Of a stretch of DNA of 64,000 bases, positions 35,009 through 42,811 are shown piece after piece. The stretch's first letter is position 1. Each line of letters starts with the position of its first letter. Position numbers and translations under genes: made by a program. This DNA comes from Massilia arenae. Lineage in GTDB: Bacteria > Pseudomonadota > Gammaproteobacteria > Burkholderiales > Burkholderiaceae_D. The notes under the pieces were generated by a model, which saw nothing but the letters and a program-made list of their open reading frames with translations, was not told the origin of the DNA and ran no database searches. Location: assembly GCF_008014745.1 (NCBI RefSeq), contig NZ_VPFD01000016.1, positions 124,001-188,000 on the forward strand, given 5' to 3'.

Positions 35009-37168
<2,160 letters not shown>

Positions 37169-37189
37169 TCGTTCTTTCTTCTTCCAAAG

Positions 37190-37220
37190 GCCGCGTCACC
37201 GCAAGGGGCGCGGCTTTTTT
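37190..37220 (+). terminator. Terminator after the S46 peptidase gene
   Basis: GCCGCG (37190-37195) and CGCGGC (37209-37214) flank a 13-nt loop and are followed by TTTTTT. It is a weaker, longer-loop hairpin but well placed 21 bp after the stop. Confidence 0.75.
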
Positions 37221-37329
37221 CATGGGCTTTTGCACAGTTTATTCCGTCGTTTCGCCCGCCTGTCGCGTACGCCGTGACGCGTCGGGGGTCGCTCGCTACA
37301 CTCGATTCAAATAATGTCGGGAGAGCGAA

Positions 37330-38424
37330 ATGAAAAACACCCTGATCTGCTGCCTGGCCGCGCTGGGCATGCTGTGCGCGAACGCCTCGGCACAGGACAG
37401 TGTCGACGCAAAGCGGCTGGCCGGCGCCCGCGCCGCGGTCGAAGACCTGCAGCGCATCGTGGCGCCGCATGGCGTGCAGGATTCCTATAAAACCCGCATC
37501 GGCGGCATCGACCAATGGATCAATGTGCGCGGCCAGGACCGCGCCAATCCGATGATCCTGTTCGTGCACGGCGGTCCGGCCTCGCCGATCACACCGACCA
37601 TGTGGCAGTTCCAGCGCCCGATCGAGGAATTCTTCACGGTCGCCAACTACGACCAGCGCGGCGCCGGCAAGAGCTATGGCGAGACCGATCCCGCCATCGT
37701 GGGCGAGACGATCCGCATCGAACGCTACGTCGACGACCTGATCGAGGTGGCCGAACACCTGCGCGGGCGCTACGGCCAGCAGAAGCTGGTGCTGATGGCG
37801 CACAGCTGGGGCACCGTGATCTCGATGGCGGCATCGTTGAAGCGTCCCGACCTGTTCCACGCCTACGTCGGCATCGGCCAGGTGATCAGCGTGCGCGAAA
37901 ATGAACGCATCGGCTTCGAGTATGCGCTGGAACAGGCGCGCATCCACGACGACAAGGAGGCGCTGAAGGAGCTGCAGGCGATCGCGCCCTATCCCGGCAG
38001 CCAGCCGATCACGCGCGAGCGCATCGTGGCCGCGCGCAAGTGGCCGCAGCACTACGGCGGCCTGTCGGCCTACCGCAGCGAGTCCACTTACTTCTTCAAG
38101 GGGCCGCTGCTCTCGCCCGACTACACGATCGACCAGGTCAAGGCCATCGATGCCGGCAGCCTGCTCACGCTGGGCCGGCTGCTGCCGGAATTCGTCGAGG
38201 TCGACTATTCGAAGGTGAAGGAATTCCCGATCCCGGTCGTGATGTTCCTGGGCCGCCACGACTACACGACGCCGACTGCACCGACCGAGGCCTGGCTGGC
38301 GCAGGTGAAGGCGCCGTCGAAGCGGGTGGTGTGGTTCGAGCGTTCGGCCCACATGGCGCCGTGGGAAGAGCCGGGCAAGACCCTGGTCAGCCTGCTGGAG
38401 TATGTGCGGCCGCTGACGCAATGA
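37330..38424 (+). CDS. Secreted alpha/beta hydrolase (proline iminopeptidase-like)
   Basis: The 364-residue protein has a signal peptide (MKNTLICCLAALGMLCANASA, residues 1-21). The alpha/beta-hydrolase core includes the oxyanion region LFVHGGPAS (about 79-87), YDQRGAGKSYG, nucleophile elbow AHSWGTV (Ser about 159) and a late histidine in FERSAHMAPWEEP. The HGGP and DQRGAGKS motifs are those of proline iminopeptidase-like hydrolases, and a periplasmic location is predicted. A solo LuxR gene begins 80 bp downstream on the same strand. No substrate is known. Confidence 0.87.
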   Translation: MKNTLICCLAALGMLCANASAQDSVDAKRLAGARAAVEDLQRIVAPHGVQDSYKTRIGGIDQWINVRGQDRANPMILFVHGGPASPITPTMWQFQRPIEEFFTVANYDQRGAGKSYGETDPAIVGETIRIERYVDDLIEVAEHLRGRYGQQKLVLMAHSWGTVISMAASLKRPDLFHAYVGIGQVISVRENERIGFEYALEQARIHDDKEALKELQAIAPYPGSQPITRERIVAARKWPQHYGGLSAYRSESTYFFKGPLLSPDYTIDQVKAIDAGSLLTLGRLLPEFVEVDYSKVKEFPIPVVMFLGRHDYTTPTAPTEAWLAQVKAPSKRVVWFERSAHMAPWEEPGKTLVSLLEYVRPLTQ

Positions 38425-38503
38425 GTTGACACTCCGGCATACTTATCGTTACGCTCCGGGGTGACAGCAAGTCCATCCGTGCTTGCTCACCCACAGGGCC
38501 CGC

Positions 38504-39235
38504 ATGCTGCGCCAGTTCGAAAGCCTTCTCCTTGCACCAGACCGCGACCGGCTTGCCGCCAGCCTGCGTCGGGCGGTCCATGCGATCGGTTTCGAATCCT
38601 TCTACTATGGCGCACAGGCCCGCAGCGGCTTGGCGCTCGACGTCGCCGACCTGAGTTCGCCACGGATCCTGACCGACTATTCGCCGCAATGGGGACAGCG
38701 CTACGGAGAAGCGGGCTACGCCAGCATCGATCCAATGGTCCAGGAATGCAGCCGGTCGATGATTCCCATTATCTGGCACCGGCATCCTTCGGTGCCGGAC
38801 AAGGGCAAGGACCGGCTGTTCGACGAAGCCCGCCAGCATGGCCTGGCGACCGGCATGACCTGCTCCATCATCGGCGGCCCCGGCGAGCTGGCGCTGCTCA
38901 GCCTGACCATGGAGAACGACCGCCAGGCCGATCGCCGCACCGTCGAACGGCAAGTCAGCCAGGGCCATATGCTGATGAGCTACCTGCACGAAGGCCTGCG
39001 CCGCCTGGACCGGCAGGCCGCACAGGCAGTCCCACCGATCCGCCTGACCGCGCGCGAAAAGGAAATCCTCACCTGGATCAGCGCCGGCAAGACCTCCTGG
39101 GAGATCGCCTGCATCCTGGCGGTGGCCGAGAGGACGGTCATCTTCCACGTCGATAACGCGATGCGCAAGCTCGATACCCGCACCCGTACCCAGGCCGTCG
39201 CCAAGGCCCTGGCGCTGGGCCTGATCGCGCCCTGA
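38504..39235 (+). CDS. LuxR-family regulator with autoinducer-binding domain (LuxR solo)
   Basis: This is a 243-residue quorum-sensing-type regulator; the ATG at 38504 is preferred over a TTG at 38483. The N-terminal autoinducer-binding domain has the conserved pattern Y-P-W-Y-Y-DP-V-P-W in DYSPQWGQRYGEAGYASIDP and IPIIWH. The C-terminal LuxR HTH is LTAREKEILTWISAGKTSWEIA followed by TVIFHVDNAMRKL. No luxI-type synthase gene lies in the window, so it is a solo that may sense its own or foreign acyl-homoserine lactones, or another ligand. A CTG-N10-CAG palindrome follows its stop. Confidence 0.92.
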   Translation: MLRQFESLLLAPDRDRLAASLRRAVHAIGFESFYYGAQARSGLALDVADLSSPRILTDYSPQWGQRYGEAGYASIDPMVQECSRSMIPIIWHRHPSVPDKGKDRLFDEARQHGLATGMTCSIIGGPGELALLSLTMENDRQADRRTVERQVSQGHMLMSYLHEGLRRLDRQAAQAVPPIRLTAREKEILTWISAGKTSWEIACILAVAERTVIFHVDNAMRKLDTRTRTQAVAKALALGLIAP

Positions 39236-39243
39236 GCGCCACC

Positions 39244-39259
39244 CTGTAACTCCTTACAG
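39244..39259 (+). promoter_or_regulatory. lux-box-like palindrome upstream of the 39381 gene
   Basis: CTGTAA-CTCC-TTACAG is a perfect 6-bp dyad that fits the CTG-N10-CAG rule of lux-type boxes. It is 9 bp after the luxR stop. A TACAAT -10-like hexamer at 39284-39289 would place the start of transcription near 39296 and the palindrome centre near -44. That is the position LuxR-type activators use. Confidence 0.6.
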
Positions 39260-39380
39260 CTCGTTTGCGCGCAGCACCGTTCCTACAATGCGTGAACGCC
39301 CTGCCAGGCCGGGGCGCTGCGGCAGGCAGGCGCCTGTCATCACCCTCAATGCACCCGGCGGACCCGGTCCGCACCCCACC

Positions 39381-40682
39381 ATGCTCATCGATATCGACGA
39401 CCTCAAGAAACAACTCAACAGCACCGTAGCCAGCGAAGTCCTGGAAGCGGAGAAGGAGGCCATCGCGCTGCTGGAACAGGGCAATCTCGAAGCGGCCGAC
39501 CTGCTCATCAGCGCCTATGCGGAAGGCGCGCCGCTGATCCGTCCGGACCGGATCAAGGAGTTCAAATACACGAAGATGGCGGCCGATCTCGGCTCGGATT
39601 TCTGTCGTTACTGGCTGGCCAAGCTGCAGCATGGGTCGAAGGATTATGCTGGCGCGATCGAGAACGCCACCAGGGCCCATGCCATGGGCATACCCTACGC
39701 GGCGACCTTGTTGGGCAAGATGATGCTGGCCGGCGAGGGCCAGCCGGCCAAGCCGCTCGACGCCCTGCAAATCCTGTCGGACAGCGTCGACAAGGACGAG
39801 AATACCGATGCCGCGCTCCTGATCGCACAAGTCTATATGGAAGAAAAGGTCGTTCTGCGCAATGCGCAAGGAGCTTATGACATTCTCCAGCGACTGGCTC
39901 ACGTGTTCGAGCGCTCGGCGCCGGCCCTGCGCGCCGACTACCTGGCCTTCAAGGCGGAATCGATCCGGCTGGGCGCGGCCCCGGGACCTGGGGAGAGCTA
40001 CGAACAGCTGATTTTCCAGGCGGCCGATCTCGGCAACGAATCGGCGGTCATCGCGCGCGGGAAACTGCAGACGGATAGGCTGGACCGCAAACTGAAAGCG
40101 GAGTGGGACGCCATCAGCCAATTCCATGCGATGGCCAAGAAATGGAAGATGTCCCTGAAAGTCGGCGTACTGACCGGAGCAGTTACGCAGAACAGATCAT
40201 CTTTGTACAACAACAGCGATGGCCGCGTCGGCGTGACAAATTCTCGCGTGCGCGTGCTTACCCTGGTCACGGCCTCCGGTCAGGAATTTACCGTCACCGC
40301 GCATCGCAAGGGAACAGTGACGACCGGTCGGCGGTATGCCGTCGTTTACGTCGGTCCGCACGATAGCGATGAAGGGGTTCACGCCATGGTCTACAATTTG
40401 GAGAGCGGTGACGTCATCAAGACCTTGGGACATCCCCTGGAAACATACAAGGGTGGGACTTTCCAAGTATTGTTCTCGGCGGCAGGCGTCGTCATGTGGC
40501 TGGTCTTGTCCCTCTGGTTTGTCATCATGGTCATGGACCACTTTACCTTCGGCAGCTTCCTGCTCTGGCTGGTGTCGGCGACCGTCGCGTTGAAGTTGCT
40601 GATGTGGCCACTGACAGGTTATAAAAAGGGACTGGCCGATGCACGCGCCTTCTTCGAGACGCACCGCGACAAAATGATGTGA
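39381..40682 (+). CDS. Uncharacterised protein: Sel1-like helical repeats plus C-terminal membrane helices
   Basis: The 433-residue product (start MLIDIDDLKKQL at 39381) has an alpha-helical N-terminal half (about 1-250) with TPR/Sel1-like spacing (TKMAADLGSDFCRYWLAKL, ATRAHAMGIPYAATLLGKM). A beta-rich segment follows (about 270-355; VRVLTLVTASGQEFTVTA). Two transmembrane helices lie near the C-terminus (about 372-395 and 397-418), before a short basic tail. No signal peptide is seen, so most of the protein should be cytoplasmic. I recognise no named family beyond these features. It lies downstream of a solo luxR gene and a lux-box-like palindrome, making quorum-type control likely (inference). 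Confidence 0.75.
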   Translation: MLIDIDDLKKQLNSTVASEVLEAEKEAIALLEQGNLEAADLLISAYAEGAPLIRPDRIKEFKYTKMAADLGSDFCRYWLAKLQHGSKDYAGAIENATRAHAMGIPYAATLLGKMMLAGEGQPAKPLDALQILSDSVDKDENTDAALLIAQVYMEEKVVLRNAQGAYDILQRLAHVFERSAPALRADYLAFKAESIRLGAAPGPGESYEQLIFQAADLGNESAVIARGKLQTDRLDRKLKAEWDAISQFHAMAKKWKMSLKVGVLTGAVTQNRSSLYNNSDGRVGVTNSRVRVLTLVTASGQEFTVTAHRKGTVTTGRRYAVVYVGPHDSDEGVHAMVYNLESGDVIKTLGHPLETYKGGTFQVLFSAAGVVMWLVLSLWFVIMVMDHFTFGSFLLWLVSATVALKLLMWPLTGYKKGLADARAFFETHRDKMM

Positions 40683-40689
40683 GGCGCGC

Positions 40690-41328
40690 TCAGCGCATCA
40701 GCGCCGTAAGTTCGGCCGCAATCTGCTGGCCCAGCGAATAGATGTGGAAGCCGTCGACGAAGCCGTGGTGGGCCTGTACCGAGAATGGCAGCACGAGCTT
40801 GCCGTCCGGACCGTCACGGAAGCGCCCCCAGGCCAGCGAAGGAATGTCCGAGCGGCCGACGCGCGTGGTCGGATGCTGGATCGAGGTGAACTCGAGCCAG
40901 GGAATGCAGGTAACGAACACCTGGTCCTTGGCGTCGCGCGGCGACAGGGTCGCATAACGCTGGTTCAGCCCCGTCATGCCCATCGCCGCGACACCGGCCG
41001 CGCGGCCGCGCGCGACGAATTCGCGCAGGTCGTCGGACCAGTCGAAGGTCGCGAAATTGAGGTCGTCGTTGAGGTTCTTGACGGTGAACGACGGAATCAG
41101 GCGCTCGATGCGGATCACTTCCTCGTCGTGGATGCGATAGCGGAAGTTCTCGATCTTCAGGACCGAGCGCAGCACCGCGCACAGAAGCACGTGGAAGGGC
41201 GCCAGGTCCTGCTCCTTGCACCAGGGCCGGAAATCCGGCAGCTCGAGCGGGAAGCACAGGTTGACCGACGGGCTGTCCATGCCGTCGAACAGCGCGAAAC
41301 GGTCGCGCCGCTGTTCGAACTTGTCCAT
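40690..41328 (-). CDS. CatA-like (chloramphenicol acetyltransferase family) O-acyltransferase
   Basis: This is a 212-residue trimeric CAT-fold enzyme. The catalytic motif HHGFVDG (HHxxxDG, near residue 189) is intact, and the central FVTCIPWLEFTSIQHP segment matches the CAT core. Many genomic CatA-like proteins do not confer chloramphenicol resistance, so the acceptor is unknown. The gene starts one base after the stop of an APC permease and is surely co-transcribed with it, suggesting that it acts on an imported amine or amino acid (inference). Confidence 0.85.
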   Translation of the reverse strand: MDKFEQRRDRFALFDGMDSPSVNLCFPLELPDFRPWCKEQDLAPFHVLLCAVLRSVLKIENFRYRIHDEEVIRIERLIPSFTVKNLNDDLNFATFDWSDDLREFVARGRAAGVAAMGMTGLNQRYATLSPRDAKDQVFVTCIPWLEFTSIQHPTTRVGRSDIPSLAWGRFRDGPDGKLVLPFSVQAHHGFVDGFHIYSLGQQIAAELTALMR

Positions 41329-41329
41329 C

Positions 41330-42811
41330 TTACTTCGCCTTGTTCAGGCGGCTGTTGCGCATGCCGTAGCCGAAGTAGGCCACGACCGCCACCGCCATCC
41401 AGATGAAGAACACGCGGAAGGTGGCCGGCGACAGGTCTTTCATGATGTACAGGCAGGCCAGCACCGACAGGCCCGGGATCACGTAGGGGCCGAACGGCAC
41501 GCGGAAGCCCGGTGGCGCATCCGCGCCCTGGCGCTTGCGGATCACCGGCACCGCGATCGAGACCACCATGAAGGCGGTCAGCGTGCCCATGCTCACCATA
41601 TCCCACAGGAAGGTGGAGTCGACGCTGCCGGCCACCATGCCCACTACCACGCACACGATCATGGTGTTCTTCACCGGCGCCTTGGTGCGTGCGCTGACCT
41701 TCTGGAATACCTGCGGGATCAGGCCGTCGCGGCTGATCGCATACAGGATGCGGGTCTGACCGTAGATCGTCACCAGGGTCACCGAGAACACCGAGACCAC
41801 CGCGCCGGCCGACAGCACCAGCGCCGGCCAGGCCTGGCCGGTCACGTTCTGCAGGATCACCGACAGGCCGGCCTGCTGGCCTTCGAACAGGTGGGCCGGC
41901 TGGGCGCCCATGGCCGCTACCGCGACCAGCATGTAGAACACGGTCACGATGATCAGGGCGGCCAGGATCCCGATCGGCACGTTGCGGCGCGGGTCCTTGA
42001 CCTCTTCGCCGGCGGTGGCGATGGTGTCCAGGCCGATGAAGGAGAAGAACACGGTGCCGGCGGCGGCGGTCACGCCGGCCATGCCGGCATAGCCCGATGC
42101 CTCGTTGGTATTGAAGAATGGCTGGAAGTTGTTGGCGTCGAAACCGGTGAAGGCGATCGCCGCGAAGAACACCAGGATCGCCAGCTTGATGATCACCATG
42201 ATGGCATTGGTGGTGGCCGACTCCTTGGCGCCGCGCACCAGCAGGAAGCCGCACAGGATCACCAGGATGATCGGCGGCAGGTTGATATTCCCCGGATGGA
42301 AGGTCACGGCATGGTGGTCCGAGACGAACATCGGAGAGCGAAGCTGCTCCGGTATCTGCCAGTTGAAGGCGTTGAGCAGGAAGTTGTTCAGGTAGTCGGA
42401 CCAGCCGATCGAAGTCGCGCTGGCCGCCAGCCCGTATTCGAGCAGCAGGCAGGCGGCGACGATGAAGGCCGCGAATTCGCCCACGGTGGCGTAGGCGAAG
42501 GAATACGAGGAACCCGAGGCCGGCACGCGGCCGGCCAGTTCGGCGTAGCACAATGCCGTCAGGCCGGCGGTCAGCGCGGCCAGCAGGAAGGACAGGATGA
42601 CCGCCGGACCGGCTTTCGGCACCGCTTCGACCATCGTGAAGAAGATGCCGGTGCCGATGGTGGCGCCGACGCCGATCATGATCAGCGGGAACAGGCCGAG
42701 CGAGCGATGCAGGCCGGGCAAGGCGCCGGCGACGCCGACGCTGGCGGTATCCTCATGGTGGGGTGCTGCCGATTTGGTACGTAACAGCTTCTGGCCCAGG
42801 GTCTGGTTCAC
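41330..42811 (-). CDS. APC-family amino acid permease
   Basis: This inner-membrane transporter of about 493 residues has 12 or more hydrophobic helices. Its N-terminal unwound-helix motif IGVGATIGTGIFF (substrate site) and the EEVKDPRRNVPIG loop are typical of the cationic/general amino acid (CAT-like) branch. The start is probably the GTG at 42811 (VNQTLGQKLLR), which has a GAAGGA ribosome binding site 7 bp upstream; an ATG at 42847 is the alternative. It is followed immediately by the CatA-like acyltransferase gene. Confidence 0.9.
   Translation of the reverse strand: MNQTLGQKLLRTKSAAPHHEDTASVGVAGALPGLHRSLGLFPLIMIGVGATIGTGIFFTMVEAVPKAGPAVILSFLLAALTAGLTALCYAELAGRVPASGSSYSFAYATVGEFAAFIVAACLLLEYGLAASATSIGWSDYLNNFLLNAFNWQIPEQLRSPMFVSDHHAVTFHPGNINLPPIILVILCGFLLVRGAKESATTNAIMVIIKLAILVFFAAIAFTGFDANNFQPFFNTNEASGYAGMAGVTAAAGTVFFSFIGLDTIATAGEEVKDPRRNVPIGILAALIIVTVFYMLVAVAAMGAQPAHLFEGQQAGLSVILQNVTGQAWPALVLSAGAVVSVFSVTLVTIYGQTRILYAISRDGLIPQVFQKVSARTKAPVKNTMIVCVVVGMVAGSVDSTFLWDMVSMGTLTAFMVVSIAVPVIRKRQGADAPPGFRVPFGPYVIPGLSVLACLYIMKDLSPATFRVFFIWMAVAVVAYFGYGMRNSRLNKAK

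Follow-up and report, generated by a model that had tools for sequence, protein, structure and literature searches.

A LuxR solo, a predicted lux box and a polymorphic membrane-protein gene as a candidate two-gene accessory module in Massilia arenae

The closest described counterpart of the locus considered here is QscR, a LuxR solo of Pseudomonas aeruginosa, for which the part of the report drawn on here describes one genomic binding region, situated at the linked operon and with the site spanning -54 to -29 (PMC6113619). However, linkage is not always accompanied by control, given that, in the consulted portion of work on fluorescent pseudomonads, the solos tested mostly did not regulate their adjacent genes (PMC8546723). 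The key residues of LuxR proteins are given, in the section of the source used, as W57, Y61, D70, P71, W85, G113, E178, L182, and G188 in TraR numbering (PMC4338825), and quorum loci with RsaM are reported for Massilia in the excerpted account (PMC10710839). For lasso peptides, the available part of a 2019 review describes gene regulation as poorly understood, mentions an AHL-influenced repressor, ScmR, for capistruin, and presents CapD as the protein thought to provide export and immunity in the capistruin cluster (PMC6963729).

The window, by which is meant the whole stretch of 64,000 nucleotides analyzed, carries a luxR open reading frame that begins with the ATG at 38504 and ends with the stop at 39233-39235 (Table 1). 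An earlier sequence-only reading had described its product as a LuxR-type protein with conserved autoinducer-pocket residues and with no synthase gene nearby, and both statements hold. The Autoind_bind and GerE domains score 100.2 and 65.3 bits (Pfam cut-offs 23 and 23.5), and the nine key residues are kept as W63, Y67, D76, P77, W91, G117, E185, L189, and G195, being located by motif and by the LasR alignment rather than by direct alignment with TraR. In a comparison with solved structures, LasR is the best match (chains at 120.5 bits), with QscR at 100.9 bits. The source genome (5,974,536 bases, or 5.97 Mb, in 80 contigs, rated 100% complete) encodes two LuxR proteins with both domains and one LuxI, the latter being the sole PF00765 match and lying on contig C10, 500 nt after the other luxR. 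The window luxR has no adjoining luxI, and no unpaired luxI is present in the genome. Because the only LuxI adjoins the other LuxR, the window protein is a solo in a genome probably capable of making its own acyl-homoserine lactone (AHL), so that a signal of its own would be possible for it. The C10 locus (L040:6300-8374) is of the las type, with an RsaL-like gene (PF22495, 78.9 bits) on the opposite strand between luxR and luxI.

Table 1. Features of the luxR-box-target locus, in window coordinates
Feature	Position	Strand	Evidence
LuxR-family regulator (solo), 243 aa	38504..39235	+	Autoind_bind and GerE (Pfam); nine key residues; sole luxI of the genome on another contig
Predicted lux box, 20 bp, core dyad CTGTAACTCCTTACAG at 39244-39259	39242..39261	+	Kept in place in G050 and G054; one base from the G526 luxI box
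Predicted -10 hexamer TACAAT, 24 nt past the dyad	39284..39289	+	Spacing 24/23/24 nt in window/G050/G054; 24 nt in the G049 lasso promoter
Predicted target, 433-aa membrane protein of no named family	39381..40682	+	19 homologues; no Pfam/NCBIfam match at 0.001
Sel1/TPR-like helical solenoid, residues 1-245	39381..40115	+	
Break between conserved and polymorphic half, residues 222-238	40044..40094	+	Best breakpoints in five pairs
Beta domain, residues 247-348	40119..40424	+	Structure model; no fold assigned
Two long C-terminal helices, predicted membrane hairpin, residues 359-432	40455..40676	+	Structure model and hydropathy
Accessory stretch (luxR, box, target) missing in four sister genomes	38421..40693	.	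Empty site in G020, G059, G009, and G035; edges vary by a few bases

The perfect CTG-N10-CAG dyad that had been pointed out after the luxR stop is present, separated from the stop by 8 bases (it starts at the ninth), and is composed of two 6-bp arms and a 4-bp spacer. The TACAAT at 39284 is likewise confirmed, and if transcription starts 7 nt after this hexamer, near 39296, the dyad centre, 39251.5, corresponds to -44.5, in line with the position near -44 proposed before. The dyad thus has the form of a lux box (a CT-N12-AG dyad of about 20 bp at an activation position), the position depending on the predicted -10. It is the sole window match at up to two mismatches (0.23 expected; at least one match in 19 of 100 shuffles) and the only exact CTGTAAN4TTACAG of the genome, where five sites exist at one mismatch, one of them upstream of the LasR-like gene. 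The pattern at up to two mismatches is not enriched in the genome, where its 36 sites compare with 47 of the reversed control pattern. When the 145-nt gap was shuffled by dinucleotides, a CTG-N10-CAG in which 6 or more of the 8 pairs matched arose within the first 21 positions in 4 of 5000 cases, and anywhere in the gap in 38 of 5000. Neither a terminator-like nor a consensus sigma-70 site was called in 38400-39420; the missing consensus pair would be expected of an activator-dependent promoter. Separately, an identical 16-mer, CTTTAAAAATTAACAG, occurs on six contigs of the genome (C32, C46, C47, C49, C51, and C53) and perhaps belongs to a repeated element.

Conservation of the palindrome upstream of target orthologues had been proposed as a check, and the comparison does not refute the prediction. 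A total of 31 luxR loci were scanned (30 from a longer list of LuxR matches in the genus, plus the LasR-like locus of the source genome), and the dyad stands just past the luxR stop in all three loci with the target gene, these being the luxR-box-target loci examined as DNA, and in none of the 28 others, where no CTG-N10-CAG is found within 250 nt after luxR. In the congeneric genomes G050 and G054 the matching place is occupied by CTGTAAGGGCTTACAG and CTGTCACTTGTGACAG, respectively, with letters changed on both arms and the dyad retained, and the distance to the hexamer is 24, 23, and 24 nt for TACAAT in the window, TAGAAT in G050, and CAGAAT in G054. Moreover, in G526, which belongs to a different family of the same order, a luxR with 39% identity to that of the window is followed by CTGTAACTTCTTACAG, one base different from the window box, and then by a luxI (Autoind_synth, 133.2 bits), although the best -10 at that distance in the luxI promoter, TCTCAT, is less clear.

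The gene behind this promoter begins at a start codon chosen by homologue alignment, with no clear ribosome-binding site seen before 39381, and has a G+C content of 59.2%, compared with 66.0% for luxR and 65.6% for the window. Its product had been read as Sel1-like repeats, a beta-rich segment, and two C-terminal membrane helices, an architecture borne out by the structure model and by hydropathy peaks at residues 367-385 and 390-411; the solenoid fold resembles Sel1 proteins (6ok3 and HcpC, 1ouv). Of 20 family members, 10 match the Sel1 profile at E<=1, the lowest value being 7.3e-06, and the window protein gives no match at 0.001. The statement that it belongs to no recognized family also stands, as Pfam and NCBIfam searches of the 433 residues returned no match at 0.001. 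A 7-row alignment of the C-terminal half alone, searched against 6799 length-limited candidates, gave no relative at 0.01; the target had no match among 72,556 plasmid records, and 36000-42000 contained no RNA family at the gathering threshold. Defence-system models gave no match at 0.1 to the target, the G054 target, or the B and C proteins of the G054 lasso cluster described below. A probable reading of the target is a Sel1/TPR scaffold on the cytoplasmic side, anchored in the membrane, whose beta domain and membrane hairpin come in several exchangeable versions.

Differing versions are apparent in a comparison of the window protein with its homologues P0001-P0005, of which P0004 comes from the isolate Massilia sp. 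CFBP9012 (414942-base contig) and the other four from metagenomes. All 15 pairs share 94-99% identity over residues 1-222, whereas over residues 238-433 the identity is 40-57% in 11 of the 15 pairs and 73-94% in four. For example, P0002 and P0005 have 2 aligned differences before residue 223 and 46% identity over 238-433, and the window protein is 97% identical to P0004 up to residue 231 and 45% beyond (2dLL 159.9). Against P0002 the window protein shows a patchwork of 0.73 (238-300), 0.94 (301-350), and 0.61 (351-433), and against P0001 no drop is observed (0.97 and 0.94). The best breakpoints in five window-clade pairs fall after residues 222, 229, 231, and 238 (the last being residue 263 of P0002, which has 25 additional N-terminal residues), with 2dLL values of 182.7, 165.7, 159.9, and 114.2, and a milder 58.4 for the window protein and P0002. 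In the comparison pairs P0011/P0014 and P0011/P0012, from the other clade, the change is nearly even (2dLL 14.2 and 11.2), and in P0009/P0017 it is moderately uneven (2dLL 33.1; 0.88 before residue 173 and 0.64 after); all eight pairs, five window-clade and three comparison, were picked after viewing the alignment. The C-terminal half evolves faster in the whole family (mean all-pair identity of 0.41 vs 0.63). Nevertheless, a constant rate ratio cannot yield both even and abrupt pairs, so that, judging from these alignments, swapped C-terminal halves are the likelier explanation of the sharp identity break.

Full-length relatives of the target are present in 3 of 62 congeners, own genome included (47% identical in G050 and 39% in G054), and a fourth congener, G021, matches over residues 18-132 only (E 3e-4). 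Among 392 family-sampled genomes 12 match the target, the full-length cases being again the own genome, G050, and G054, and the other nine reaching at most 27.5 bits, over the repeats. The genomes with the full-length target are those with the three best LuxR matches of the genus (100, 62, and 42%). Searches of a protein collection gave 19 target homologues, scoring being confined to the 8000 candidates with most words in common, and, with 1e-40 as the limit, 39 LuxR relatives; five of the 19 were assigned to the same source as a LuxR homologue on the basis of equally long longest contigs, two of them below 4.1 kb. The distances in the LuxR and target families correlate with r 0.75 over 8 pairs, of which three are verified as DNA and five inferred from those equal-sized contigs, and 10 of 20000 permutations were as high. 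In the LuxR tree, which carries long-branch warnings, the window protein lies in a 19-row clade (100/99), the G054 protein in another clade, of 5 rows (100/100), and the LasR-like protein of the source genome across the midpoint root from that of the window. The label of linkage to the membrane gene changes 8 times on this tree, as in shuffles, with neighbours known for a minority of rows; among the rows labelled as pairs, luxI is confirmed by Pfam for G526 only. At 1e-48 the G054-type LuxR is found only in G054 itself among the 392 sampled genomes, and against plasmids it gives a single partial match, to a LasR gene.

The suggestion that the secreted hydrolase upstream (37330) belongs to the unit does not survive this comparison. 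The hydrolase directly precedes luxR in the window and in G050, where luxR and the membrane gene also sit after it, but at E<=1e-60 it is matched in 34 of 62 congeners and not in the module genome G054, and in the four sister genomes G020, G059, G009, and G035, where it is 92-96% identical to that of the window, it ends a few bases from a CAT-like gene, luxR and the membrane gene being absent. The hydrolase is therefore background at the locus and lies outside the unit. The empty sister sites together with the G050 arrangement imply either an old presence of the module here, followed by loss in the sisters, or its exchange through recombination in the flanking DNA. The site is variable in another genome, G042, where a different 539-aa open reading frame stands on the minus strand between the hydrolase and the CAT-like gene (L093:6443-8062). 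The CAT-like acetyltransferase itself (window 40690-41328, minus strand; PF00302, 56.6 bits, below the NCBIfam chloramphenicol acetyltransferase cut-offs) is kept in the sister genomes, and resistance is not implied.

Outside the window, the G054 luxR adjoins a lasso-peptide cluster on the plus strand (L039:8236-12293) that ends in the membrane-protein gene. The order after the box is a precursor-like peptide (51 aa, no family match), a lasso B2 protein (57.6 bits to NF033537, cut-off 33), a cyclase of the Asn-synthase type (79.1 bits to PF00733, with scores to the NCBIfam lasso cyclase models staying below cut-off), and the membrane-protein gene, the next scanned gene being a dihydrouridine synthase. 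A related cluster is found on the minus strand in G049 (L118:4214-6918), with identities of 61% for B, 67% for C, and 75% over 36 residues for the precursor; luxR and the membrane gene were not matched beside it. Upstream of its precursor stands CTGTCAGTTCTTACAG, followed after 24 nt by GATAAT, so that both clusters have a common promoter type, box-24 nt-NANAAT, which suggests AHL control of these lasso peptides. At 1e-80 the G054-type cyclase is limited to G054 and G049 among the 392 sampled genomes, and lasso B2 occurs in 3 of 62 congeners, the third being G028. The own genome has no lasso B2 and no Transglut_core3 match, and the window has no lasso genes.

Taken together, the domains, the key residues, the box with its conservation in position and spacing, and the gene linkage are best explained by a QscR-type two-gene accessory module formed by a LuxR solo and its linked target, a reading to which we give a probability of about 70% for the regulatory part. 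We infer that the solo would bind an AHL supplied by neighbours or by the LuxI of its own genome, that the AHL-bound dimer would occupy the dyad at about -44, and that it would recruit RNA polymerase to a promoter that has a good -10 but lacks a consensus -35, thereby switching on the single adjoining membrane-protein gene. Against this stand the absence of genome enrichment of the box class and the placement of the G054 LuxR in a subclade other than that of the window protein. The earlier idea of an undescribed signal-responsive unit is then retained for the LuxR solo, the lux-type box, and a linked target of no named family, and abandoned for the hydrolase.

A different assignment of the box is unlikely although it has points in its favor. 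In this case, the box would be read mainly by the LasR-like regulator of the C10 luxR-rsaL-luxI locus, and the solo would be a modulator, a decoy, or a heterodimer partner. A LasR-like LuxR and a LuxI are present in the genome, a one-mismatch site, CTGAAATTTGTTACAG, lies upstream of the C10 luxR, similar sites are found upstream of luxR in G020, G035, and G009, all of them devoid of the module, and the G049 lasso cluster has the promoter with no luxR of the window type matched beside it. However, the dyad upstream of the C10 luxI is of another type, CTATCAATGCTGATAG (CTATCAGACCTGATAG in G049), and the target gene travels with the window LuxR rather than with the LasR-like regulator, a common protein in the genus.

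Equally improbable is a QscR-like brake, in which the membrane protein would delay the own quorum system or raise its threshold. The available part of the P. aeruginosa report describes a deletion of the linked operon that phenocopies the qscR mutant (PMC6113619), the source genome also has a las-type system, and a brake is compatible with the two-gene module, differing from it solely in the job of the target. Nonetheless, the target is unlike PA1895-1897, to which that part of the report attributes fatty-acid hydroxylase or desaturase-like domains (PMC6113619), and the swapped C-terminal halves are left unexplained by a brake. By far less probable is a plant-signal LuxR of the XccR/OryR/PsoR class paired with the proline-iminopeptidase-like hydrolase (TIGR01250, 64.9 bits), which directly precedes luxR in the window and in G050; this class has, in the portion of the source consulted, W57M and Y61W, and it is rejected by the intact W63 and Y67, the hydrolase score being also far under the cut-off of 167.65 and the linkage being lost in G054. 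A chance palindrome or a weak luxR terminator, to which the short arms and the position directly past the stop codon would be suited, is just as remote and is rejected, since no terminator-like site was called there and the dyad is kept in place with changes on both arms, at a fixed distance from the -10-like hexamer, and matches a luxI box.

Returning to the two-gene module, the job of its target can be guessed at from the lasso cluster. Strain-specific immunity or recognition is a weakly held guess, made because in one genome, G054, the lasso cluster ends in the membrane gene and no capD-like exporter was seen in the scanned downstream region. More doubtful is the wider picture of a quorum-controlled polymorphic membrane family, with a conserved Sel1/TPR scaffold and strain-swapped beta-plus-membrane halves, that would form a Massilia-type accessory module and once end a LuxR-controlled lasso cluster, serving as a density-induced immunity or kin-recognition device of which the window copy might be an orphan immunity gene. 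If the module reading is true, one receptor, one box, and one gene make a compact, testable unit, and because the module is absent from close sister species its effect would be readable by deletion or by transfer among environmental Massilia strains kept in the laboratory. Moreover, the apparent C-terminal swapping suggests a role of the target in strain-strain interactions, by which a LuxR solo would be connected with bacterial competition. Among the titles listed for LuxR solos, Massilia, Sel1 repeats, and lasso peptides in the open-licence literature, none describes a luxR-box-target module, which is no proof of absence.

Finally, the locus can be set against the known systems. With XccR, OryR, and PsoR and their pip genes it shares a LuxR solo beside a proline-iminopeptidase-like gene, whereas the residues equivalent to W57 and Y61 are intact here and the hydrolase is outside the conserved unit. 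The capistruin-type lasso clusters are similar for G054 and G049 only, where a precursor-like peptide, B2, and an Asn-synthase cyclase stand behind a similar promoter; on the other hand, the window lacks lasso genes, its genome lacks a B match, and the G054 cyclase is under the model cut-offs. With Sel1-like repeat proteins (6ok3; HcpC, 1ouv) the target has in common the N-terminal helical solenoid, to which it adds a beta domain and a membrane hairpin without Pfam/NCBIfam match at 0.001, the C-terminal half being polymorphic. The luxR-box-luxI tandem of G526 has the same order and direction of luxR, box, and target, a box one base different, and a LuxR 39% identical, but a synthase gene in the place of the membrane-protein gene. 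In the QscR/PA1895-1897 system of P. aeruginosa, according to the part of the report used, a LuxR solo also stands beside its target in a genome with another luxI and with a box at an activation position (-54 to -29 there; predicted centre about -44.5 here), whereas that target is a divergent operon of three genes whose domains resemble fatty-acid enzymes and the one here a single tandem Sel1/TPR membrane gene (PMC6113619). By sequence, LasR gives the window LuxR a higher score than QscR does, so that the protein would resemble QscR in its working at most and is not classified as QscR. The predicted signalling resembles the known QscR type, and the target is new.
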